From assembly GCA_029907475.1 (NCBI GenBank), contig JARYLU010000022.1, positions 1 to 45,505 on the forward strand: 45,505 bases of DNA, read 5' to 3'. Both the position numbers and the translations under genes were made by a program. The stretch comes from Bacillota bacterium (lineage in GTDB: Bacteria; Bacillota; DSM-12270; Thermacetogeniales; Thermacetogeniaceae). The notes beneath the pieces are model-generated. The model was not told the origin of the DNA. It was given only the letters and a program-made list of their open reading frames with translations, and searched no databases. Within the stretch, counting starts at the first letter, position 1; each line of letters opens with the position of its first letter. This document shows, in pieces, positions 5,806 through 15,573 of this stretch.

Positions 5806-6522
5806 TCAATGTTTTTTCCTGCCTTCCTCCTTACCAGAAGACCTCTCCAAATCCTTCAAAGAAACCGCAAAGGGATTAAAGTTGGTCCCTACATCAAAGT
5901 AGTCCTCCTGCTCCACCCTTTTCAGCCAGTTAACAATTCCGTAGGTAACAGGTGTCGCCGCAATCTCGTAAAGTGTCTTGAATACGTAATTACTGCCGGT
6001 CATCACGACCAGTGCAGGGAACGGGATGATCCCCGTAAAGGCAATTGCAACGAAGAGAACCGAATCGATGAATTCCCCGACCAGGGTGGAACCGATGGTC
6101 CGCGTCCAGAGCCACCGGCCGCCTGTCAGGATTTTCATTCTTGCAAGCACGAACGAGTTGGTGAACTCCCCACTAAAATAGGCAATCAAACTGGCCAGGA
6201 CAATGCGCGGGGTTTGCCCTAAAATCGCTTCGTAGTCCTTTTGGCGGTACCAGTCGGGAGCCGGAGGCAGTTCCCCTACAAACCAGTAGACAAACGCCAT
6301 AAAGATACACGCGGCGAACCCGGACCAGATCGCAATCCTGCTCCTTTTGAAACCGTAGACCTCGGTCAACACATCACCAAAAATGTAAGCCAAAGGAAAT
6401 AAGATAGTAGCGCCATCGAAGTAGAAGGGTCCCAGTTGCGTAACCTTAACCGCCACAGTGTTTGACACCAGCAGTACGACGACAAAGGCCACCATGACAA
6501 AAGAAAAGAACCTGTACTGCAC
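5806..6522 (-). CDS. Queuosine precursor transporter (YhhQ/VUT family)
   Basis: 238 residues from the GTG at 6522. A TTG 20 codons upstream (6582) is also in frame, but AAGGAG sits 8 nt before the GTG and hydrophobic sequence starts right after it. It is a polytopic membrane protein with about six hydrophobic segments. Family hallmarks are the early SNTVAVK stretch, the GDVLTEVYG motif and the late GEFIDS segment. The family takes up 7-deazaguanine precursors (preQ0/preQ1) for queuosine in tRNA. A truncated, diverged second copy of its N-terminus lies at 8480-8618 in the same orientation. A possible promoter is TTTCAA-N17-TATACT around 6590-6620. Confidence 0.88.
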   Translation of the reverse strand: MQYRFFSFVMVAFVVVLLVSNTVAVKVTQLGPFYFDGATILFPLAYIFGDVLTEVYGFKRSRIAIWSGFAACIFMAFVYWFVGELPPAPDWYRQKDYEAILGQTPRIVLASLIAYFSGEFTNSFVLARMKILTGGRWLWTRTIGSTLVGEFIDSVLFVAIAFTGIIPFPALVVMTGSNYVFKTLYEIAATPVTYGIVNWLKRVEQEDYFDVGTNFNPFAVSLKDLERSSGKEEGRKKH

Positions 6523-6693
6523 TTTTTCTGCTCCTTCCCGCAAAGAAGGGGTGAGTGCTTCCCGTCCGGATGATTTTTTCAACCAGTTATAGTATACCAG
6601 CCTTTAACCAGCTTTGAAACCGGTAAACAAGGCGCACCCGTTGTTATGCCGGCATTAATCGGTCACCATTCCCTCCCGCCCGAAGACTGTGAA

Positions 6694-7258: not shown

Positions 7259-8468
7259 ATGGAACACGGGCCGTTTCTCTTGTTGGGCGGCTTGGTGGTG
7301 CTCTTCTTTTTCGTCCTCGGCTTTGTTTCCCATAAGACCAGGCTTCCTTCGGTCTTGATATACATGGTTTTCGGGATTATCCTGGCCGGATCCCTTACGC
7401 AGGATCAAGCCCTTTCTTTCGTCGCTCAAACCGGGATCGTTTTGCTGTTTTTTCTCCTGGGATTAGAATTCCCTTTAAAAAGAATGACAGAGCTCTTCAG
7501 CAAAGTCTGGCCTGCCGGCCTGCTGGACGTAGTGCTCAATCTTGGAGCCGGGTCTTTGCTTGCCCTGGCTTTCGGCCTGAACCTGGCGACCGCTTTTCTC
7601 ATCGGGACGGTAGTTTATGCCACAAGTTCATCCATTACCGCGAAAATGCTCGAAGAGAAGAAGCGGCTGGCCAACCCGGAAGCAGAGTTCATCCTGGCAC
7701 TGCTGATCTTTGAGGACCTTGTGGCGCCCCTGCTTGTCTCGTTCCTGGCCGGTCTCAGTTCCGGAGTGAACATGACAGGAGCACAAGTTGCAGTGCTCAT
7801 CTTGAAAATTTTTGGCGTAACGCTGGGGGCCGTGTTTACCGGACGGTGGGGCTTCAGGAGGCTTTCCCATTTCGTGGAAAAGCATTTCGAAAAAGACTTC
7901 ATGCCGCTGTTCGCCGCTGGCATTGCCTTTTCCTACGCCGGTCTCGCCCTCGCTTTAGGTTTGTCGGAGGTGCTCGGTGCGTTCCTGGCCGGGGTGATGC
8001 TGTCCGAAACCGGGCAATCCGAGAAATTGGAGCACCTGATCTTGCCGGCGCGCGATCTCACCCTGCCCTTCTTTTTTTTCTGGTTCGGCACGTCAATAAC
8101 ACTTCGAGAGGGTGTTCCTATGACCGCCCTGCTGGCCCTGCTTGTCCTCTGGTCACTGCTTGGAAAACTGATCGTGCTTCTACGGAGGCCAGACTTTCGG
8201 CCTCACTCCAAAGGCTGCGCTCAGAGCGGGTCTTTCTCTCGGGCAGAGAGGAGAGTTTTCGGCCATTGCCGCCTCCCTGGCATCACCTCAGCTCCGGTCC
8301 TTCAGCGGCGTCTACATCCTGGCGACGGCCTCCCTCGGGCTGTTCCTGTTTAACAGAGCACCCGGTTTATCACGAAAGATCTACGACATCTGGCTGCACA
8401 GGAAATTAAAAGCCGGCGGTACGGGAGCCAGCCAAACCCCCGGCGGCAAGGCTACTGTCAACCAGTAG
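7259..8468 (+). pseudogene. khtU: KhtU-like K+/H+ antiporter membrane subunit (CPA2), frameshifted
   Basis: A CPA2/Kef-type cation:proton antiporter with about ten visible hydrophobic segments. The primary frame reads normally to about 8170 (GKLIV) and then runs into unrelated sequence, stopping at 8353. The family C-terminus continues in the +1 frame from about 8175 (FYGGQTFGL, then LSLGQRGEFSAIAA) to a TAG at 8466-8468. The shift fits a single inserted base or a two-base loss near 8175. It is either a real loss-of-function mutation or a sequencing error; the downstream frame remains clean for about 95 codons, which favours a recent event or an error. The ATG at 7259 follows AAGGAG by 15 nt, a loose fit. 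Confidence 0.85.
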
Positions 8469-8479
8469 AAGTATTTTTG

Positions 8480-8618
8480 GGGAAGTAAAAAGGCCCAGCT
8501 GCGTGACCTTCACCGCGACGGTGTTGGACAGCAGCAGCACAACCACAAAAGCCACCATCACAAAAGGGAATAACCTTACGGCACCTTTCCTGCTCCTTTT
8601 TTTCTTGTGCAGTCCCAC
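8480..8618 (-). pseudogene. N-terminal remnant of a second YhhQ-type transporter
   Basis: The minus strand encodes a stretch matching the beginning of the gene at 5806-6522 (VMVAFVVVLLLSNTVAVKVTQLG), with many silent differences, so it is a diverged paralogue and not a fresh copy. Homology ends abruptly at about 8480, where the tail of the antiporter gene on the other strand begins. Only about 45 codons remain and no continuation exists. This suggests an old duplication of the transporter flanking khtTU, later cut down. Confidence 0.8.
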
Positions 8619-8684
8619 TTTCCAGTATTCCAGCTTTCCCCTGATAAGAAAAGCAGCTCAGGAACATGGCATGAGCGAGATAAA

Positions 8685-8791: not shown

Positions 8792-10825
8792 CTACTTCCC
8801 GCCCAGGACGTCGACGAGGCGGAGCACCATTGTGGCGGCCTCCGCGCGCGTGACCCGCTTCTCGGCCCGGAAGGTGTTGTCGGGATAGCCGGTGACGATG
8901 CCCTTCGCCACCGCCACCCCGATCCCTGCCCGTGCCCAGACCGGAATCCTGGCAGTATCGCCAAACTTAAGCTCTGCCGGAGCGACCGTCCCGAGCTCCT
9001 TCTCGAGAATCCGCGCCACCAGGACGGACAGCTCGGCCCTGGTGACGGAGCGCCCGGCCTCAAAGGTCGCCGTGCCGTCCGGCTGCGGGTAGCCCTTCAC
9101 CAGACCCTCCTTTACCGCTGCCGCCACCGCGCCCCTCGCCCAGGGGGGGATGGCGGTGTTGTCCTTGAACTCGAGCTCCTGCTCGCTGCCCGGCGTGAGC
9201 TTCAGAGCGCGCACCAGAATCGCCGCGACCTCGGCGCGCGTTACTTCTCTCTCAGGACCGAAGGTACCGTCCGGATAGCCGGAGATGACGCCCATTCCCG
9301 CCAGTTTCCCAACAGCTTCTGCCGCCCAGTGGCCCTGCATGTCCTTGAAGGTGACAACCGGCGTGGGAGTTGGGGGCGGCGGCACCTCCTTGGCCACGGC
9401 GAACACCGCAAACAGCGTGTGGTGGTCAACCGTCACCGTCACGATTCCCTTCTCCAGATCCACGGTGCCTCCGAGGCGCACCCACTTGCCGGCCTTCTCG
9501 TCGTAGTAGAAGGCGGCCGGCTCCTGGTCCTCGCCCAGCTTGCCCTTGTCGAAGTAGAGGGTGATGGTGATCTTCCCGGTCAGGGTGCCGTCCTTGAGGG
9601 TGACGTCCACGACCCTGCTCAGAAGCGGCATCCCCGCGCCGGAGGCCTTTTCGTCGCCCAGGACCTCAACCTTGATGGCGGCGTTCGCCCCGGTCACGGC
9701 GCCCGCCGGCAGTTCGACCTTTACCCTGCCGGAAATCTCGGCCACGGTGGTCGTTCCAGCCTGCACGAGCTTCTCGATCTTATCGGCAGGTGGCGTTATA
9801 GGACCACCGCCGCCTCCGCCGCCTCCGCCTCCGCCACCACCGCTGCCGGGCGCAGCATCAGTAGTTACGCTTACCTCGTTCGACCAGCCGGACCCATTCC
9901 CCGCTACGTCAACGGCCTTAACGCGGAAGACATAGGTCGTAGAAGGGGCGAGGCCCGACTTTGTGAACGAGTTGGTAGTAACCTCGCCAGCCACCTGAAA
10001 CTGGCCGCCGCTTTGCTTCATCTCCACCACGTATTTGGCAACGCCCCCACTGTCGGCAGAGGCGTCCCATGCCAGGCGGGCGCTCGACGAGGTCTTTGCC
10101 GTTACCTGCAGGTTGGCCGGAGCCGTGGGCGGCACAGTGTCAAGCAGGATGTTGGCCTGGGCAGTGGCCGTGTTTCCCGCACTGTCTTTAATCTGCACGT
10201 ACACGGTCTTTTGACCATCACCAGGAGATAGCGTCCAGCTTTTGGTCGACGCGTAAGGCTCCCCATCGCTCCATGACTGACCGTCGTTGGAGAAGCGCAC
10301 CGTTAACTGCGCTTGCGGCGTCTGGTCGTCGCTCGCCTCCAACCGGAGGGTCACTGATGTGCTGTTGGTCGCCGCCGCACCGTTGTTGATTGTAAAGCTT
10401 TCGATGACGGGCGGCGTGGTATCCTGCGGCACCTCGCTCACGGTGAGATCGAGCCTCGTTTTCTCTCCCGGCGTGAACTTCGCCGTCTCGTTGGCCTTGA
10501 CGCCGTTGACGTAAAACTCAATAGTCTTCCCTGCATCTTCACTCGTCCCCTGCACGACGAGCCTCTCGTCGAACCCTCCGGGGCCGCCGTACTGCCCGTT
10601 GACGATAGCGATGCTGTCCTGCTTCACGCCGTTCATCCAGGCCTCAACGGTGCCGGAAAGAATCAGGTTGCCGCTTGCGTCCTTCACGCTGCCCCAAAAG
10701 CTCTGCGGCAGGACAGGCGCGGGGGGCGTGCCCTGCGCGAGGGCCAGCCCCCCAGCCACAACTGCCGAGAGCAGGGCAGCGACCGCCAGGATGCTCAGAA
10801 TTTTCAGATAGCGCTGCCTCTGCAT
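8792..10825 (-). CDS. Secreted SLH-domain surface protein with FN3 domain
   Basis: 677 residues. Signal peptide 1-30 (cleavage near LALA/QG); beta-rich region 35-230; fibronectin type III domain about 233-322; a run of 13 glycines at 329-341; a ZU5/autoproteolytic-like beta domain about 345-478; a proline-threonine linker; and three S-layer homology repeats at about 493-536, 553-600 and 618-665. SLH triplets bind pyruvylated secondary cell-wall polymer, so the protein should be anchored to the wall by its C-terminus. The Shine-Dalgarno GGGAGGT is well placed. It starts 15 nt after the large surface protein gene and is clearly in its operon. Confidence 0.93.
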   Translation of the reverse strand: MQRQRYLKILSILAVAALLSAVVAGGLALAQGTPPAPVLPQSFWGSVKDASGNLILSGTVEAWMNGVKQDSIAIVNGQYGGPGGFDERLVVQGTSEDAGKTIEFYVNGVKANETAKFTPGEKTRLDLTVSEVPQDTTPPVIESFTINNGAAATNSTSVTLRLEASDDQTPQAQLTVRFSNDGQSWSDGEPYASTKSWTLSPGDGQKTVYVQIKDSAGNTATAQANILLDTVPPTAPANLQVTAKTSSSARLAWDASADSGGVAKYVVEMKQSGGQFQVAGEVTTNSFTKSGLAPSTTYVFRVKAVDVAGNGSGWSNEVSVTTDAAPGSGGGGGGGGGGGGGPITPPADKIEKLVQAGTTTVAEISGRVKVELPAGAVTGANAAIKVEVLGDEKASGAGMPLLSRVVDVTLKDGTLTGKITITLYFDKGKLGEDQEPAAFYYDEKAGKWVRLGGTVDLEKGIVTVTVDHHTLFAVFAVAKEVPPPPTPTPVVTFKDMQGHWAAEAVGKLAGMGVISGYPDGTFGPEREVTRAEVAAILVRALKLTPGSEQELEFKDNTAIPPWARGAVAAAVKEGLVKGYPQPDGTATFEAGRSVTRAELSVLVARILEKELGTVAPAELKFGDTARIPVWARAGIGVAVAKGIVTGYPDNTFRAEKRVTRAEAATMVLRLVDVLGGK

Positions 10826-10840
10826 CCTTCGTCTACCTCC

Positions 10841-13800
10841 CTACTGCACTGGCGGCATGGCCAGACCGGCCAGCGTGTCGGCCTGGCGCATGTAGACCCA
10901 GTAGCCGCGGAAGTCCATCATCACATAGTTCTCAGGATTCGGTGTCTGCGGCGTGTAGACCCAGGCAGGCTGGTTGCACCCGGCCGGGCTGATCACCACT
11001 GCGTAGCTGCCGCTGATACTGGAGAGGGCCTCGTTAGCGCCCATCCCCTGGTCCGCCGGGTTGCCGACCAGGTTCCAGCCGGCAGGCAGGCCACGCATCG
11101 GCGGTGTCCCGAGTCCCGGCTGCGCGCACGAGACCGCCCGAGTCTGACCCTTGACCTTCACGTAGAGCGCCTCCAGCGGCCGGAGCTTCATGCTCTCGGG
11201 ATTCGCCGGGGTCACCTGGTACCACTGGCCGTCCTTGTAGCCCCAGGCCTGCTCGACGTACTCCGGATTCTCCAGGCTCTCGTCTATGGTGTCCCTCCCA
11301 TCAGCCAGCGCCCACGGCGTGGAAATAATGTTCCAGCCGCGGAACAGGGGCGTGACAAGGTCCGGGCCCCTGCCGATGAAGATGGTCGCTTCAGCCGTCA
11401 GGTCGAGGTCGGCGATCTCGGCGGTGAGCTCAACCCCGGTGCCCAGCGGGTCGTCGCTCTCGAGGTAGACGGTGACTTCGTCGTTATATGCGGGGATGAT
11501 TGCCTGAGTGATCGGCTCAGCTGCTTGGTCGTCAGCGTAGAAGGCGCTGTTTGGTGTGCTGGTGGCAAGATCCACCGTCAGGGCGCGGCAGGAGGCCCAG
11601 AGGTTGGTGAGCCTGACCGTCACCGGCACGCGGGTGTCGGGAAGCGCCGCAGCCGGAGCATCGATCACGAGGGACGGCTCCTCAAAGACGACCTGCTTCG
11701 AGACGGCTTCGAAGCCGCCCGCGGAGGCCGTCACGGTGTAGGTGCCCGGCGCGGTGACGACGAACCAATAATCGGTGTAGGCCCACATATCATTCTCGAA
11801 GAAAGCACAGTCAGGCACCAGGAAGGCCGACGGCGAATCGTCCTTTAGCGAGATTAACAGAGAAGTATTCTGCGGCACGGGGTTGCCGTACTGGTCCACG
11901 ACGACGACAATTATCGTAGCGAAGCCGATCAGGTCAGTGGCGTCGATCTGCGAACCGACCTGGGTGAAGACCTCGTCTGGCACTGCCTCCACGTCCTGGT
12001 GCACACCGTCGAGGGTGATGGCCGTAGCCTCGGCCGGGTCGACGATTGCCTGACCGATGAACCCGAACACGCCCTCGGAGCGGAAGGCGACCGTGTAGCT
12101 GTAATCGGCCGGATTCAGTCCAAATGCTGAAAGCTTGCCATCTTCAAAGGCCTTCTTCGTCCAACTCCCGGTGTCAACGTAGTAGATGGTGGCGCTCACC
12201 GAACCCGCCGGAATGGTCACCTGGGTGATCGGGTTCTGGTTCGTCGCGGTAAGATAGAACGCGCCGGTCGGGCTGTTCGTTTCCAGGTAGACCACGCGGC
12301 CGTTCTGCCCTGCTGGCACCGGGTTCGAAAAGACATCGCGGACGGTGATGGTGACCTCGCCCCGCCCGCCGACGGTGAAGGTCGGGAGATCAACGTCGAG
12401 CCGGAGTTCTGCTCCGGTGCCCACATTAATGGTGGCCCCGGCGGTAACGGTATCACCAAGCAAGACACCCGTGCTCGTCACCCGCGGCGCGGCGAAAGTG
12501 AGGGTGTGCGCGCCCACTGCGTCGGGAGCGGGCACGTAGTAGACCTTGATGCTGCTCTGGCCCTGGGGGACGGTGACTTCATTGATGTCGCTACCGTTTG
12601 CGGGTCTGTCGTAGAAGGTACCGTCACTGTCCGTATCCAGGTCAATAGTCACGCCGCCCTGCGGGGCCGCGAAGTTGTTGCCGAACTGGTCCTTGAGGGT
12701 GATGGCGATCTCGCTGGCGATGCCCACCTCGCCGGTCTGGGGCGCGGTGATGTCAAGCGCGGTCAGGACCGTCACGCCCACGGCCACGGTTATCTGGTCC
12801 TGCGTAAGTCCAGCGGCGCTAGCCGTGACGGTGTAGAGGTTAGCCTGTGTGCTGCGGAAGCGGAACTGAGCGCTGCTCTGGCCCTGCGGAACGGTAAGCT
12901 GGTTGTTCTGGAGGGGATTGCCCTGCGCGTCGCTGAACTCCGCGCCCTGGGCGGGGTTAGCGGCAAGGGTCACGGTGACACCGCCTGCTCCCGCAGGAGC
13001 CACGTTGCCGAAATCATCCCTCAGGGTGATGGTGTAGGTCCCCCAGGTGTTGGTGGCGAGGTAGCTCGGTCCGGCAAGCTCGAGTGCCGCGGGCTCACCA
13101 GGCAGGACCTCGAAGGTAACGGAGCCGGACTCCAGCCCGGAAGCAGTGGCGGTGATGGTGATGTCGCCCGCGGTCATGGGGGTCCAGGTTACCTGCTCAG
13201 ACTCACTGGCATTCTGCGGAATTGTTGCCTCAGCAGTCTCCTGCTCGCCTTCAAAGTTCGCCTGCGGGTCGTTGTCGCTGAGGGTTACGGTGATGCCCTC
13301 CGCCGCAACGGCGCCCAGGTTGCCGTGCTGGTCCGCGAGCACAACCACCAGACTCTGGGGAGTGCCCGCCGTCACCTGGGTGCCGTCGGCAATGGGGGTG
13401 CCGCTCTCATCGGCTATCACCAGGCTGGCGGGGGCAGCAGGAACGATCGTCACTGTCCCTGTCTGACCGGTATCGCCCGTGTGCGAGGTGCGGACGGTGA
13501 TGTTGTAGTCACCAGCAGTGGTGGGGTTGACGACGCCGGAGATGGTGACGGTCACGGTAGAGTTCTCCGGAATCCCCGCTCCCGTGTAGAAGAGTTGGAA
13601 GACGCGCGGAGTGGGGTGGTTTACCTCAAAGTCGGGCGTGACCTCCCACGCGTCGGGGTACACGGCGTACACCACGCTCGTCACCTGCGCGTCCTGCGGG
13701 TTGAAGCCCGCCGGGAAGGTGATGGTCACGCTGTCGCCGGTAGCCAACCCGTCACTCTCAAACCCAAAAGCCACTTCGTACTCCGCCGTTGCGCCCGCGG

Positions 13801-13936
13801 CCGTGTCGTCCGCCACCACGGTTACGTTGCCCACGTGCGCCAGCGCAGGTACCGCCGGCAAAAGCGCCACGAGCAAAGCAAGAAGAGCAATGATAGAAAT
13901 TACCTTACGCCTGGCTTTCTTGGAAGAAATAGCCAT
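10841..13936 (-). CDS. Large secreted S-layer-type protein with repeated Ig-like domains
   Basis: 1031 residues with a signal peptide (about 1-33, cleavage near ALA/H). The body consists of about six repeated Ig-like (Big_1/invasin-type) modules, recognisable by the recurring strand L-x-D-x-[FHY]-G-N and the V-[TVI]-x-L-x-[TDS] turn (DQHGN, DDFGN, DQFGN, DVFSN, DQYGN). The C-terminal domain has paired GWN[IL][IV]S/GNP motifs and four cysteines. It carries no SLH repeats. First gene of a two-gene operon with the SLH protein, so it may be the main lattice protein or be retained by its partner. Composition is rich in T, V, A and poor in K and C, as in S-layer proteins. Expression is probably controlled by the leader at 14080-14150. 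Confidence 0.88.
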   Translation of the reverse strand: MAISSKKARRKVISIIALLALLVALLPAVPALAHVGNVTVVADDTAAGATAEYEVAFGFESDGLATGDSVTITFPAGFNPQDAQVTSVVYAVYPDAWEVTPDFEVNHPTPRVFQLFYTGAGIPENSTVTVTISGVVNPTTAGDYNITVRTSHTGDTGQTGTVTIVPAAPASLVIADESGTPIADGTQVTAGTPQSLVVVLADQHGNLGAVAAEGITVTLSDNDPQANFEGEQETAEATIPQNASESEQVTWTPMTAGDITITATASGLESGSVTFEVLPGEPAALELAGPSYLATNTWGTYTITLRDDFGNVAPAGAGGVTVTLAANPAQGAEFSDAQGNPLQNNQLTVPQGQSSAQFRFRSTQANLYTVTASAAGLTQDQITVAVGVTVLTALDITAPQTGEVGIASEIAITLKDQFGNNFAAPQGGVTIDLDTDSDGTFYDRPANGSDINEVTVPQGQSSIKVYYVPAPDAVGAHTLTFAAPRVTSTGVLLGDTVTAGATINVGTGAELRLDVDLPTFTVGGRGEVTITVRDVFSNPVPAGQNGRVVYLETNSPTGAFYLTATNQNPITQVTIPAGSVSATIYYVDTGSWTKKAFEDGKLSAFGLNPADYSYTVAFRSEGVFGFIGQAIVDPAEATAITLDGVHQDVEAVPDEVFTQVGSQIDATDLIGFATIIVVVVDQYGNPVPQNTSLLISLKDDSPSAFLVPDCAFFENDMWAYTDYWFVVTAPGTYTVTASAGGFEAVSKQVVFEEPSLVIDAPAAALPDTRVPVTVRLTNLWASCRALTVDLATSTPNSAFYADDQAAEPITQAIIPAYNDEVTVYLESDDPLGTGVELTAEIADLDLTAEATIFIGRGPDLVTPLFRGWNIISTPWALADGRDTIDESLENPEYVEQAWGYKDGQWYQVTPANPESMKLRPLEALYVKVKGQTRAVSCAQPGLGTPPMRGLPAGWNLVGNPADQGMGANEALSSISGSYAVVISPAGCNQPAWVYTPQTPNPENYVMMDFRGYWVYMRQADTLAGLAMPPVQ

Positions 13937-14079: not shown

Positions 14080-14150
14080 AAAAAAGCAAGAAGAGGAGGC
14101 CAAAAAAGACCTCCTCTTCAATTGCCTCTCAAGGGCTTTTGTTGAGTTGC
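14080..14150 (-). promoter_or_regulatory. Leader element 1 with terminator, ahead of the S-layer operon
   Basis: On the minus strand a conserved block (AAAGCCCTTGAGAGGCAATT) is followed by a 10-bp terminator stem (14110-14119 with 14090-14099) and TTGCTTTTTT. The same block-plus-stem occurs in elements 2 and 3. It lies between com-like gene 1 (stop at 14171) and the S-layer gene (start at 13936). It could be a plain terminator or a leader attenuator; conservation of the block upstream of the stem suggests more than a terminator. Confidence 0.6.
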
Positions 14151-14170
14151 AGGAACCTGCAGCCGGCAGA

Positions 14171-14374
14171 CTAGCAGAAATGAACCCCTTTTATCCCGGC
14201 CGTCTCGATCCTCACCAGCCTCTTGCACTTGGAGCACTTGATCTCGATCACGTCCCCCGCCACGACGCAGATGAGGCGGTTGCAGACGCATCTCAGCTCT
14301 CCTTGGGGCACCTCGCCCCTTTCCGGGGCGCAGGCAAGGCCCGCTTTCAGGCCCCCCAAATCTCTCTCTCGCAT
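14171..14374 (-). CDS. Com-like zinc-finger small protein, copy 1
   Basis: 67 residues from the ATG at 14374, which has AAAGAGGT 7 nt upstream; a longer frame to 14452 would run through the terminator of element 2 and is rejected. The core LRCVCNRLICVVAGDVIEIK and then CSKCKRL matches the zinc-finger core of phage Mu Com (RCxxCNKLL...IEIRCPRCKR). Mu Com is an RNA-binding translational activator of mom. About 60 percent identical by eye to copy 2 (14743-14916). Tucked between two leader elements upstream of the S-layer operon. Function here is unknown; RNA or DNA binding is inferred from the family only. Confidence 0.75.
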   Translation of the reverse strand: MRERDLGGLKAGLACAPERGEVPQGELRCVCNRLICVVAGDVIEIKCSKCKRLVRIETAGIKGVHFC

Positions 14375-14442
14375 ACCTGAGACCTCTTTCCGGCAGCAAA
14401 ATCCCCCAGCGCGGCAAAATTCGACAAGTGAGACACAGGACG

Positions 14443-14512
14443 CTAAAAACAAAACGAAGAGGAGTGCTTTTGAGTCTCCTCTTCGATTGCCTCTTAAGGG
14501 CTTTCGTGGAGT
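14443..14512 (-). promoter_or_regulatory. Leader element 2 with terminator, ahead of com-like gene 1
   Basis: Conserved block GAAAGCCCTTAAGAGGCAAT, then a perfect 10-bp stem (14476-14485 with 14455-14464) and TTTTGTTTTT, on the minus strand. It ends about 70 nt before the start of com-like gene 1 and about 230 nt after the stop of copy 2, a position that fits a leader attenuator better than the terminator of the preceding gene. Confidence 0.6.
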
Positions 14513-14742
14513 GGTCCTCGCCGGGCGGCTCCGCTCTGCTGCCTGCCGCTCCGGGCCGGACGCTCCTCCGGCGGCCGCACTGGCCCTGGTTCTAAACTAA
14601 TATATACGCCAACTTTCCCATTTTTCCTCCCTGATTCCGCAAAGTTTTTTGTGTAATGATTCTTCGAATTCTGTCGAAGCCGCGCCGGCACCTTCTCCAT
14701 TCAGCTGGGAAATTTAAAGATATTCAGATTTATCATACAAAA

Positions 14743-14916
14743 TTAGAGGTACTCGATTTGCTTAATGCTGGAAACGGAAATTTTTATTAATCTTTTGCAC
14801 TTCGGGCATTTGATCTCGATCGCCCCGTCCTGAACCTTACAAATTAAACGGTTACAGATGCATCTCAACTCTCCCTGCAACTCGCTGTTCTTTTCCGCTG
14901 CACTTATTATACTCAT
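14743..14916 (-). CDS. Com-like zinc-finger small protein, copy 2
   Basis: 57 residues from the ATG at 14916, with AGGAG 13 nt upstream, rather distant. The frame is open further upstream to 15051 but that extension lacks family resemblance. The core LRCICNRLIC and IEIKCPKCKRLIKI gives a Com-type zinc finger. It shares the QGELRC[IV]CNRLIC stretch with copy 1, so the two arose by duplication, probably together with their leader elements. Confidence 0.75.
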   Translation of the reverse strand: MSIISAAEKNSELQGELRCICNRLICKVQDGAIEIKCPKCKRLIKISVSSIKQIEYL

Positions 14917-15141
14917 TTTCGAACTCAAACTCCTTTTTAGGCTTCCTGGACTCTTCCCTTCCCCTCCTATAAGATAACGAACCCTCTTTTTGACAAGAAA
15001 TTTTCTGAGTTGTATTCTGCCAATTCCATTATAAACCAGGGACCCCGACATATACGGTCGGTTAAATCCAAAAAACTAAAAATTTAATATGCTTGAAACT
15101 AAGAAACCACCACCTCCTTTCCGGCAACAATCTCAACTTCG

Positions 15142-15240
15142 TAAAAAACAAAAGAGGAGTCAGAAGTATAAACGTACTTCTGATCTCCTCTTCGGTGGCC
15201 TCTCGGGCTTCCGTTCTTCTGCGGCCTCTGGGGCTTCCGT
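15142..15240 (-). promoter_or_regulatory. Leader element 3 with terminator, ahead of com-like gene 2
   Basis: On the minus strand two tandem copies of a block (AACGGAAGCCC..AGAGGCC) precede a long stem (15175-15192 with 15152-15168, one mismatch) and TTTGTTTTTTAC. No gene lies upstream on this strand; the next gene is divergent. The terminator therefore sits in a leader and cannot be ending an upstream gene, the best evidence that the elements are regulatory. Another inverted repeat (CCGGAGA/TCTCCGG, 15306-15341) lies further upstream. Confidence 0.6.
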
Positions 15241-15573
15241 TGAGTTTGGTTCAGTATGGGTAGCGAAAAGAAATAAAATAAAAGAAATAAAAAAGATATG
15301 TTTCATCCGGAGACGCGAGAGTAGACGCTGGATTTCTCCGGGAAGGGATTTGGGCTTTATATTATTATACATTATGGAGTATTCGCTAAAGTTCCGGCAA
15401 TTCCTGCCCCAAAATTGACGTGTACTATATAAATTAATGTCGAATAGTGTCGTTAGATCCTGATTTCGCCCCTAGCAGGAAACAGGAGGCCTGCAGGAGA
15501 AATAAAAGAGTGGTTTGTAATTTAAAAATCGTCTTAAATGGGCGGCTTAAAAGTGTTCCGGGGAGGCAGGGAA

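Follow-up and report, generated by a model that had tools for sequence, protein, structure and literature searches.

Com of bacteriophage Mu is a translational activator that acts on the mom mRNA (PMC6483171). Its SELEX motif is 5'-CC(N)2-3GAG, presented in a hairpin with an invariable C-G closing pair, and its footprint covers the GA and the first C of the loop (PMC6483171). Control by competing RNA structures has been described for ANTAR proteins, whose RNA target consists of dual hairpins with six-nucleotide loops carrying A1 and G4, the second hairpin overlapping a terminator, and for LicT-type antitermination, in which a protein-stabilised hairpin competes with the terminator (PMC3369931).

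The window, a stretch of 45,505 nucleotides from a bacterium of the Thermacetogeniaceae (Bacillota; contig JARYLU010000022.1), carries on its minus strand a series of parts with some of the properties of each of these systems. Read in the direction of transcription, these are leader 3 (15143..15245), the com-like 2 gene (14743..14916), leader 2 (about 14444..14516), the com-like 1 gene (14171..14374), leader 1 (14080..14152), a gene for an S-layer-type protein of 1031 aa (10841..13936), which is the presumed target, and, as the second gene of the operon, a gene for an SLH-domain surface protein (8792..10825; SLH, 127 bits). The coordinates thus confirm the order up to the S-layer gene given in the first-pass annotation. 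Upstream of leader 3 there is no gene, and a glycosyltransferase gene is divergent from it. Com-like proteins probably bind the hairpins of these leaders and set how much transcription reads through the terminators that precede the com-like genes and the S-layer operon. More specifically, each leader could be a protein-responsive transcription attenuator, at which Com-like binding would lead to read-through into com-like 2, com-like 1 and the S-layer operon; based on sequence comparison, we put the probability of this reading at about 0.64.

Both com-like genes encode small proteins with conserved C.C and C..C motifs and KCKR, as in Com-type Cys4 zinc ribbons. The 57-aa com-like 2 protein scored 23.4 bits with PF10122 (cut-off 22.9), and the six-frame search with this family gave 22.3 bits. 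The 67-aa com-like 1 protein scored 15.1 bits, which is under the cut-off, and 84.6 bits with profile A2, of which the sequence itself is a member. Its AlphaFold model is a four-stranded ribbon with a core pLDDT >90, and no credible relatives were found among solved structures. Neither Pfam nor NCBIfam covers the Com-like group as a whole, and Pfam gave only weak Com or zinc ribbon matches; PF10122 matched 6 of 19 Com-like cores at E<0.1, and profile-profile comparison related the Com-like sets to phage Com with a probability of 93-94%. By using Com-like profiles, genes were identified in 45 out of 398 Bacillota genomes (the window's own type included), often with 2-5 per genome. A phage origin of these genes was considered and is without support, as a search of IMG/VR with one sister-clade query returned no relative.

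The system shares with Mu Com/mom the small Cys4 zinc ribbon, the C-G-closed hairpin with a C..GA loop, an inhibitory structure adjoining the target and a regulator gene beside its target. However, the Com-like genes are host-encoded in Bacillota, score weakly in Pfam and have a tandem, autoregulatory layout. Their putative target sites lie at transcription terminators upstream of the com genes and of surface or cytochrome operons, with unlinked sites in a sister clade, and their neighbours in the window are S-layer and SLH genes rather than the adjacent mom or dam DNA modification gene controlled in phages.

The first-pass annotation had described a conserved block followed by a terminator in each leader. 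The composite of the block, AAGCCC..AGAGGC, and GAAGAGGA is present in exactly three copies in the whole 3.0-Mb genome, all at this locus; no copies were expected from shuffles of the window, and the reversed composite, used as a control, had 0 copies in the genome. A covariance model of the leader also matched exactly three sites genome-wide, all at this locus (15143-15223 in leader 3). The description changes in two respects: leader 3 contains the AAGCCC..AGAGGC part in two copies (15236-15224 and 15210-15198), and the block forms a hairpin of its own, whose C(N2-4)GA loop is closed by a C-G pair. Its form in all leaders of the window is GCC-C(N2-4)GA-GGC, with N2 in leader 3 and N4 in leaders 1 and 2. 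Leader 3 contains two Com-type hairpin copies, 3a (15224..15234, GCC-CCAGA-GGC) and 3b (15193..15213, CGG-AA-GCC-CGAGA-GGC-CA-CCG, with a covarying lower stem), followed by a strong terminator with its T tract (15147..15193). In leader 2, the hairpin (14484-14506) is followed by a terminator (14455-14485) and a T tract to about 14445, and in leader 1 the hairpin (14119-14141) is followed by a terminator reaching into its GGCAA (14090-14119) and a T tract to about 14080. All three leaders folded better than their dinucleotide shuffles (z -4.2, -3.0 and -4.1; -4.07 for leader 3), and a generic promoter and terminator scan of the window was not above chance (3 terminators vs 2.8 expected). Some candidate signals were dropped. 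Genome-wide matches to the broad pattern AAGCCCN0-5AGAGGC were mostly due to chance, as the count was similar to that of the reversed control, and the additional match C7 in the same genome lies inside a coding frame. A conserved 5' ACTCMA element pairing with the terminator was inconsistent across sequences when checked by eye.

It had been suggested earlier that the leader should covary and be conserved beyond this genome, and both were found. Ten window-type leaders were aligned, from the same genome, G002 (same genus), G011 and Thermacetogenium phaeum (G006; both same family), and G162 and G240 (two other families). In the RNAalifold consensus, the C(N2-4)GA loop sits on an invariant GCC/GGC stem, which an AA/AA-type internal loop separates from a lower stem of 3 bp. 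Two-sided changes were found in the lower stem (CAA/UUG, CGA/UCG, CGG/CCG and GUA/UAU), and the upper stem is invariant in all ten leaders and is therefore uninformative on covariation. In these ten sequences, 96.7% of the hairpin cells were paired, with double changes in three pairs; the covariation score was attained by 0 of 500 shuffles, and slid structures paired at no more than 35%.

The Com-like gene and the block were kept together in other species, including three other families, ahead of S-layer, SLH or secA genes. Window-type modules are found ahead of S-layer or SLH genes in the window and in G011, G162, G240 and G002, and the S-layer homologue behind the matching module in G011 is 56% identical to that of the window. 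In G448 (locus L182), the Com-like gene and the block lie directly ahead of secA, followed by a surface-protein gene, and this layout suggests that accessory secretion could also be controlled. The hairpins of G011, G162 and G448 have N3 loops. The first leader of G162 has no U tract, a transposase remnant interrupts the com gene of G015, and the module of T. phaeum is not followed by an S-layer gene. In the latter genome, the end of a group II intron was also observed just 5' of the com-like gene (L037, 7579-7649, minus strand). A block match in G058 was set aside as a chance hit, since neither a com gene nor a leader context accompanies it.

These comparisons also bear on the possibility that the blocks are plain, unregulated terminators of the com genes, repeated because a com-terminator unit was duplicated. 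Leaders 1 and 2 do lie immediately behind com genes, and the two genes are paralogues (72% DNA identity across 86 nt). However, no gene lies upstream of leader 3, and in G002 this leader is retained immediately 5' of an SLH gene with no intervening com gene, which supports the earlier idea that leader 3 acts as an attenuator. Covariation in the hairpin is separate from that in the terminator, which counts against the block being a mere terminator, and the sister clade described below has module pairs with no gene between them and modules before unlinked operons. Plain termination is thus quite improbable.

The hairpins of the window fit the target form of Mu Com, CC(N)GAG with C-G closing, although the N4 spacing of leaders 1 and 2 and the N1 spacing found mostly in the sister clade lie outside the published N2-3. 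Such hairpins were also found at or near the mom or dam junction in 6 out of 7 phage com loci (Mu, Pseudomonas, Moraxella and another Escherichia phage), and 4 of those 6 have a close hairpin pair just 5' of the gene, for example aggc-CGAGA-gcct and gcgc-CGCTGA-gcgc. The closeness of the window block to the SELEX motif, together with the similar hairpins of the phage com-mom/dam loci, makes binding of the block by Com-like proteins more credible. Around 99 com genes, 123 CC(N)1-4GAG hairpins were counted on the sense strand and 19 on the antisense strand, with at least one such hairpin at 71 and 21 of the 99 genes, respectively. The density in the sense flanks was 1.69 per kb compared to a background of 0.34, an approximately 5-6-fold enrichment. 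The stems of these hairpins paired above column expectation on the sense strand (0 of 2000 shuffles, pairs 2 and 3), and no such excess was found on the antisense strand. About one quarter of com genes have no motif hairpin nearby, which would fit a situation where the hairpins are read by another ligand or protein and the Com-like genes are just co-regulated. As the loop agrees with what Com selects in SELEX and the sister-clade tandem motif was found only in com-bearing genomes, another reader is the least probable of the explanations considered.

This sister Com-like clade occurs in other Bacillota, and in most other Com-bearing genomes the com flanks carry tandem hairpins, GUC-CRGA-GAC and GUC-CAGA-GGC, with mostly N1 loops (CNGA). 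The tandem sequence pattern was found in 20 out of 398 genomes, all of them among the 45 with Com-like genes, and 11 of the 20 took no part in defining the pattern; the reversed pattern was found in 0 of 398. A model of the tandem motif matched 27 of the 35 genomes with com genes and none of the 9 without, where matches linked to com genes are so partly by construction and the unlinked ones are independent. At 76 of 77 sites, compared to 28.9 expected in shuffles, the 3' arm of hairpin 2 pairs again with downstream sequence to give a terminator-like stem, of which it is the 5' arm; a U-rich tail follows the re-paired stem at 67 of the 77. Without the three shared pairs, the mean energy of the stem rises from -14.9 to -6.7 kcal/mol, a loss of about 8. 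This terminator is 98% paired and covaries strongly, with double changes in five pairs. At its middle position the shared arm has G or A, which pairs with C or U in the terminator and with U (sometimes C) in hairpin 2. Selection on terminator pairing of this kind does not sit well with a post-transcriptional action of the Com-like proteins, on translation or mRNA stability, to which the terminator would be incidental. Such an action would follow the example of Mu Com, which activates translation, and of the phage hairpins, which lie shortly 5' of the mom or dam start; the leader 1 hairpin, however, is ~180 nt from the S-layer start and adjoins a terminator, and we give this explanation very little weight.

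As hairpin 2 and the terminator share bases in the sister clade, protein binding should oppose termination there, and antitermination is the most likely direction of control. Compared with the sister clade, mutual exclusion of hairpin and terminator is weaker in the leaders of the window. The terminators of leaders 1 and 2 run into the GGCAA of the hairpin, and hairpin formation costs 5-6 kcal/mol, leaving a core terminator stem of ~8-11 bp with the Com hairpin formed. In leader 3, the two structures coexist with hardly any overlap. The main rival is therefore that Com-like binding strengthens termination, in the direction of TRAP, so that negative feedback would cap the output of both S-layer and Com. 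RNA-binding proteins that control their own expression usually do so by negative feedback, and the intact terminator beside the Com hairpin of leader 3 and the strong core left in leaders 1 and 2 would suit this rival. The arm shared at nearly all sister-clade sites and the role of Mu Com as an activator speak against strengthened termination, which we consider unlikely.

Antitermination is the most economical model, in agreement with a Mu activator that opposes an inhibitory structure and with the layout of ANTAR leaders. The sister clade shares with ANTAR control (EutV, NasR, AmiR) two small hairpins before a terminator, the second of which overlaps it, at several operon sites; this overlap is partial in leaders 1 and 2 and not seen in leader 3. 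However, the loops are CNGA or C(N2-4)GA rather than hexanucleotides, leaders 1 and 2 have a single hairpin, and no ANTAR domain was detected by Pfam in the Com-like proteins. Competition of hairpin and terminator is also alike in LicT/SacY/BglG control at RAT elements, where both the protein family and the RNA differ. The Com-like system would appear to work like ANTAR or LicT control, yet outside ANTAR.

In the antitermination model, the nascent leader RNA would form either the Com-type hairpin (C(N1-4)GA, C-G closed) or the intrinsic terminator, which shares or abuts the 3' side of the hairpin. A Com-like zinc ribbon would bind the hairpin loop, in the manner of Mu Com on the mom transcript, and would hold this 3' side, and RNA polymerase could then continue into com-like 2, com-like 1 and lastly the S-layer operon, resulting in a self-amplifying cascade with the surface layer as output. 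Hairpin binding, antitermination over enhanced termination and any signal, which may be the zinc or redox state at the Cys4 site, are the parts of the model that we infer.

The modules of the sister clade lie ahead of com genes and of multiheme cytochrome c7, cytochrome b561 and NapC-type operons, and at some loci two modules occur in tandem with no gene between them. Modules unlinked to com genes were found 5' of AAA+/VWA operons, an MFS transporter, another cytochrome operon, a nuo-type run in Candidatus Frackibacter, and small membrane proteins behind ftsZ. At five loci (L166, L266, L269, L271 and L278, in G030, G147, G200, G248 and G176, respectively), tandem CNGA-hairpin attenuators precede an AAA+ (Mg-chelatase-like)/VWA operon and no com gene is nearby; these operons are likely trans targets. 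The membrane protein, observed in L273, L276 and L040 (4170-4370), ends in WPPHIW or WPPFWP and is encoded behind ftsZ and between com genes, with a Com-type attenuator in front each time.

The recurrence of these parts in dozens of other Bacillota suggests a widespread RNA-based control system. With odds only a little better than even, host-encoded Com-like zinc ribbons could make up a class of RNA-binding transcription antiterminators that spans the phylum Bacillota, with a defined C(N1-4)GA hairpin code, self-amplifying leader-com-leader cascades and regulons of multiple operons (S-layers, multiheme cytochromes and others), and with phage Com as an offshoot or an ancestor. If so, Com, so far a phage curiosity, would stand for a general class of RNA-binding regulators in bacteria, and natural variants would be available of an RNA-protein pair that already serves as a tool. 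S-layer and surface cytochrome proteins are costly and abundant in anaerobic Bacillota and the control of their level is poorly known, for which the system offers a concrete RNA code, a small regulator and predicted regulons.

Rfam, at gathering and relaxed thresholds, gave no match in the leaders or in the com loci of eight related regions, and no prior description of the system was found among open papers (subscription papers and preprints being outside the search), where only the Mu Com paper combines its elements. The first-pass annotation had raised a possibly undescribed circuit controlling itself and the surface layer; its novelty holds on these searches, and its extent proved wider, being limited neither to S-layers nor to this genome. 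By sequence, the Com-like group would be a new group of regulators and the leader hairpin a new RNA element, within protein-dependent attenuation.

Further observations were made around the leaders. A Shine-Dalgarno-like GGAGGTGGT element lies 3' of the terminator at 14065-14012 and 15118-15105 of the window, with no evident gene start, and it recurs after the terminators of S-layer leaders in G011, G002 and G162. Elsewhere in the window, a KefB-like antiporter frame (7259-8409, plus strand) seems broken near its 3' end, possibly by a frameshift, and a shortened repeat at 8406-8667 on the minus strand matches the N-terminal part of the VUT/YhhQ-like gene (5806-6582), with 74% identity over 39 aa.
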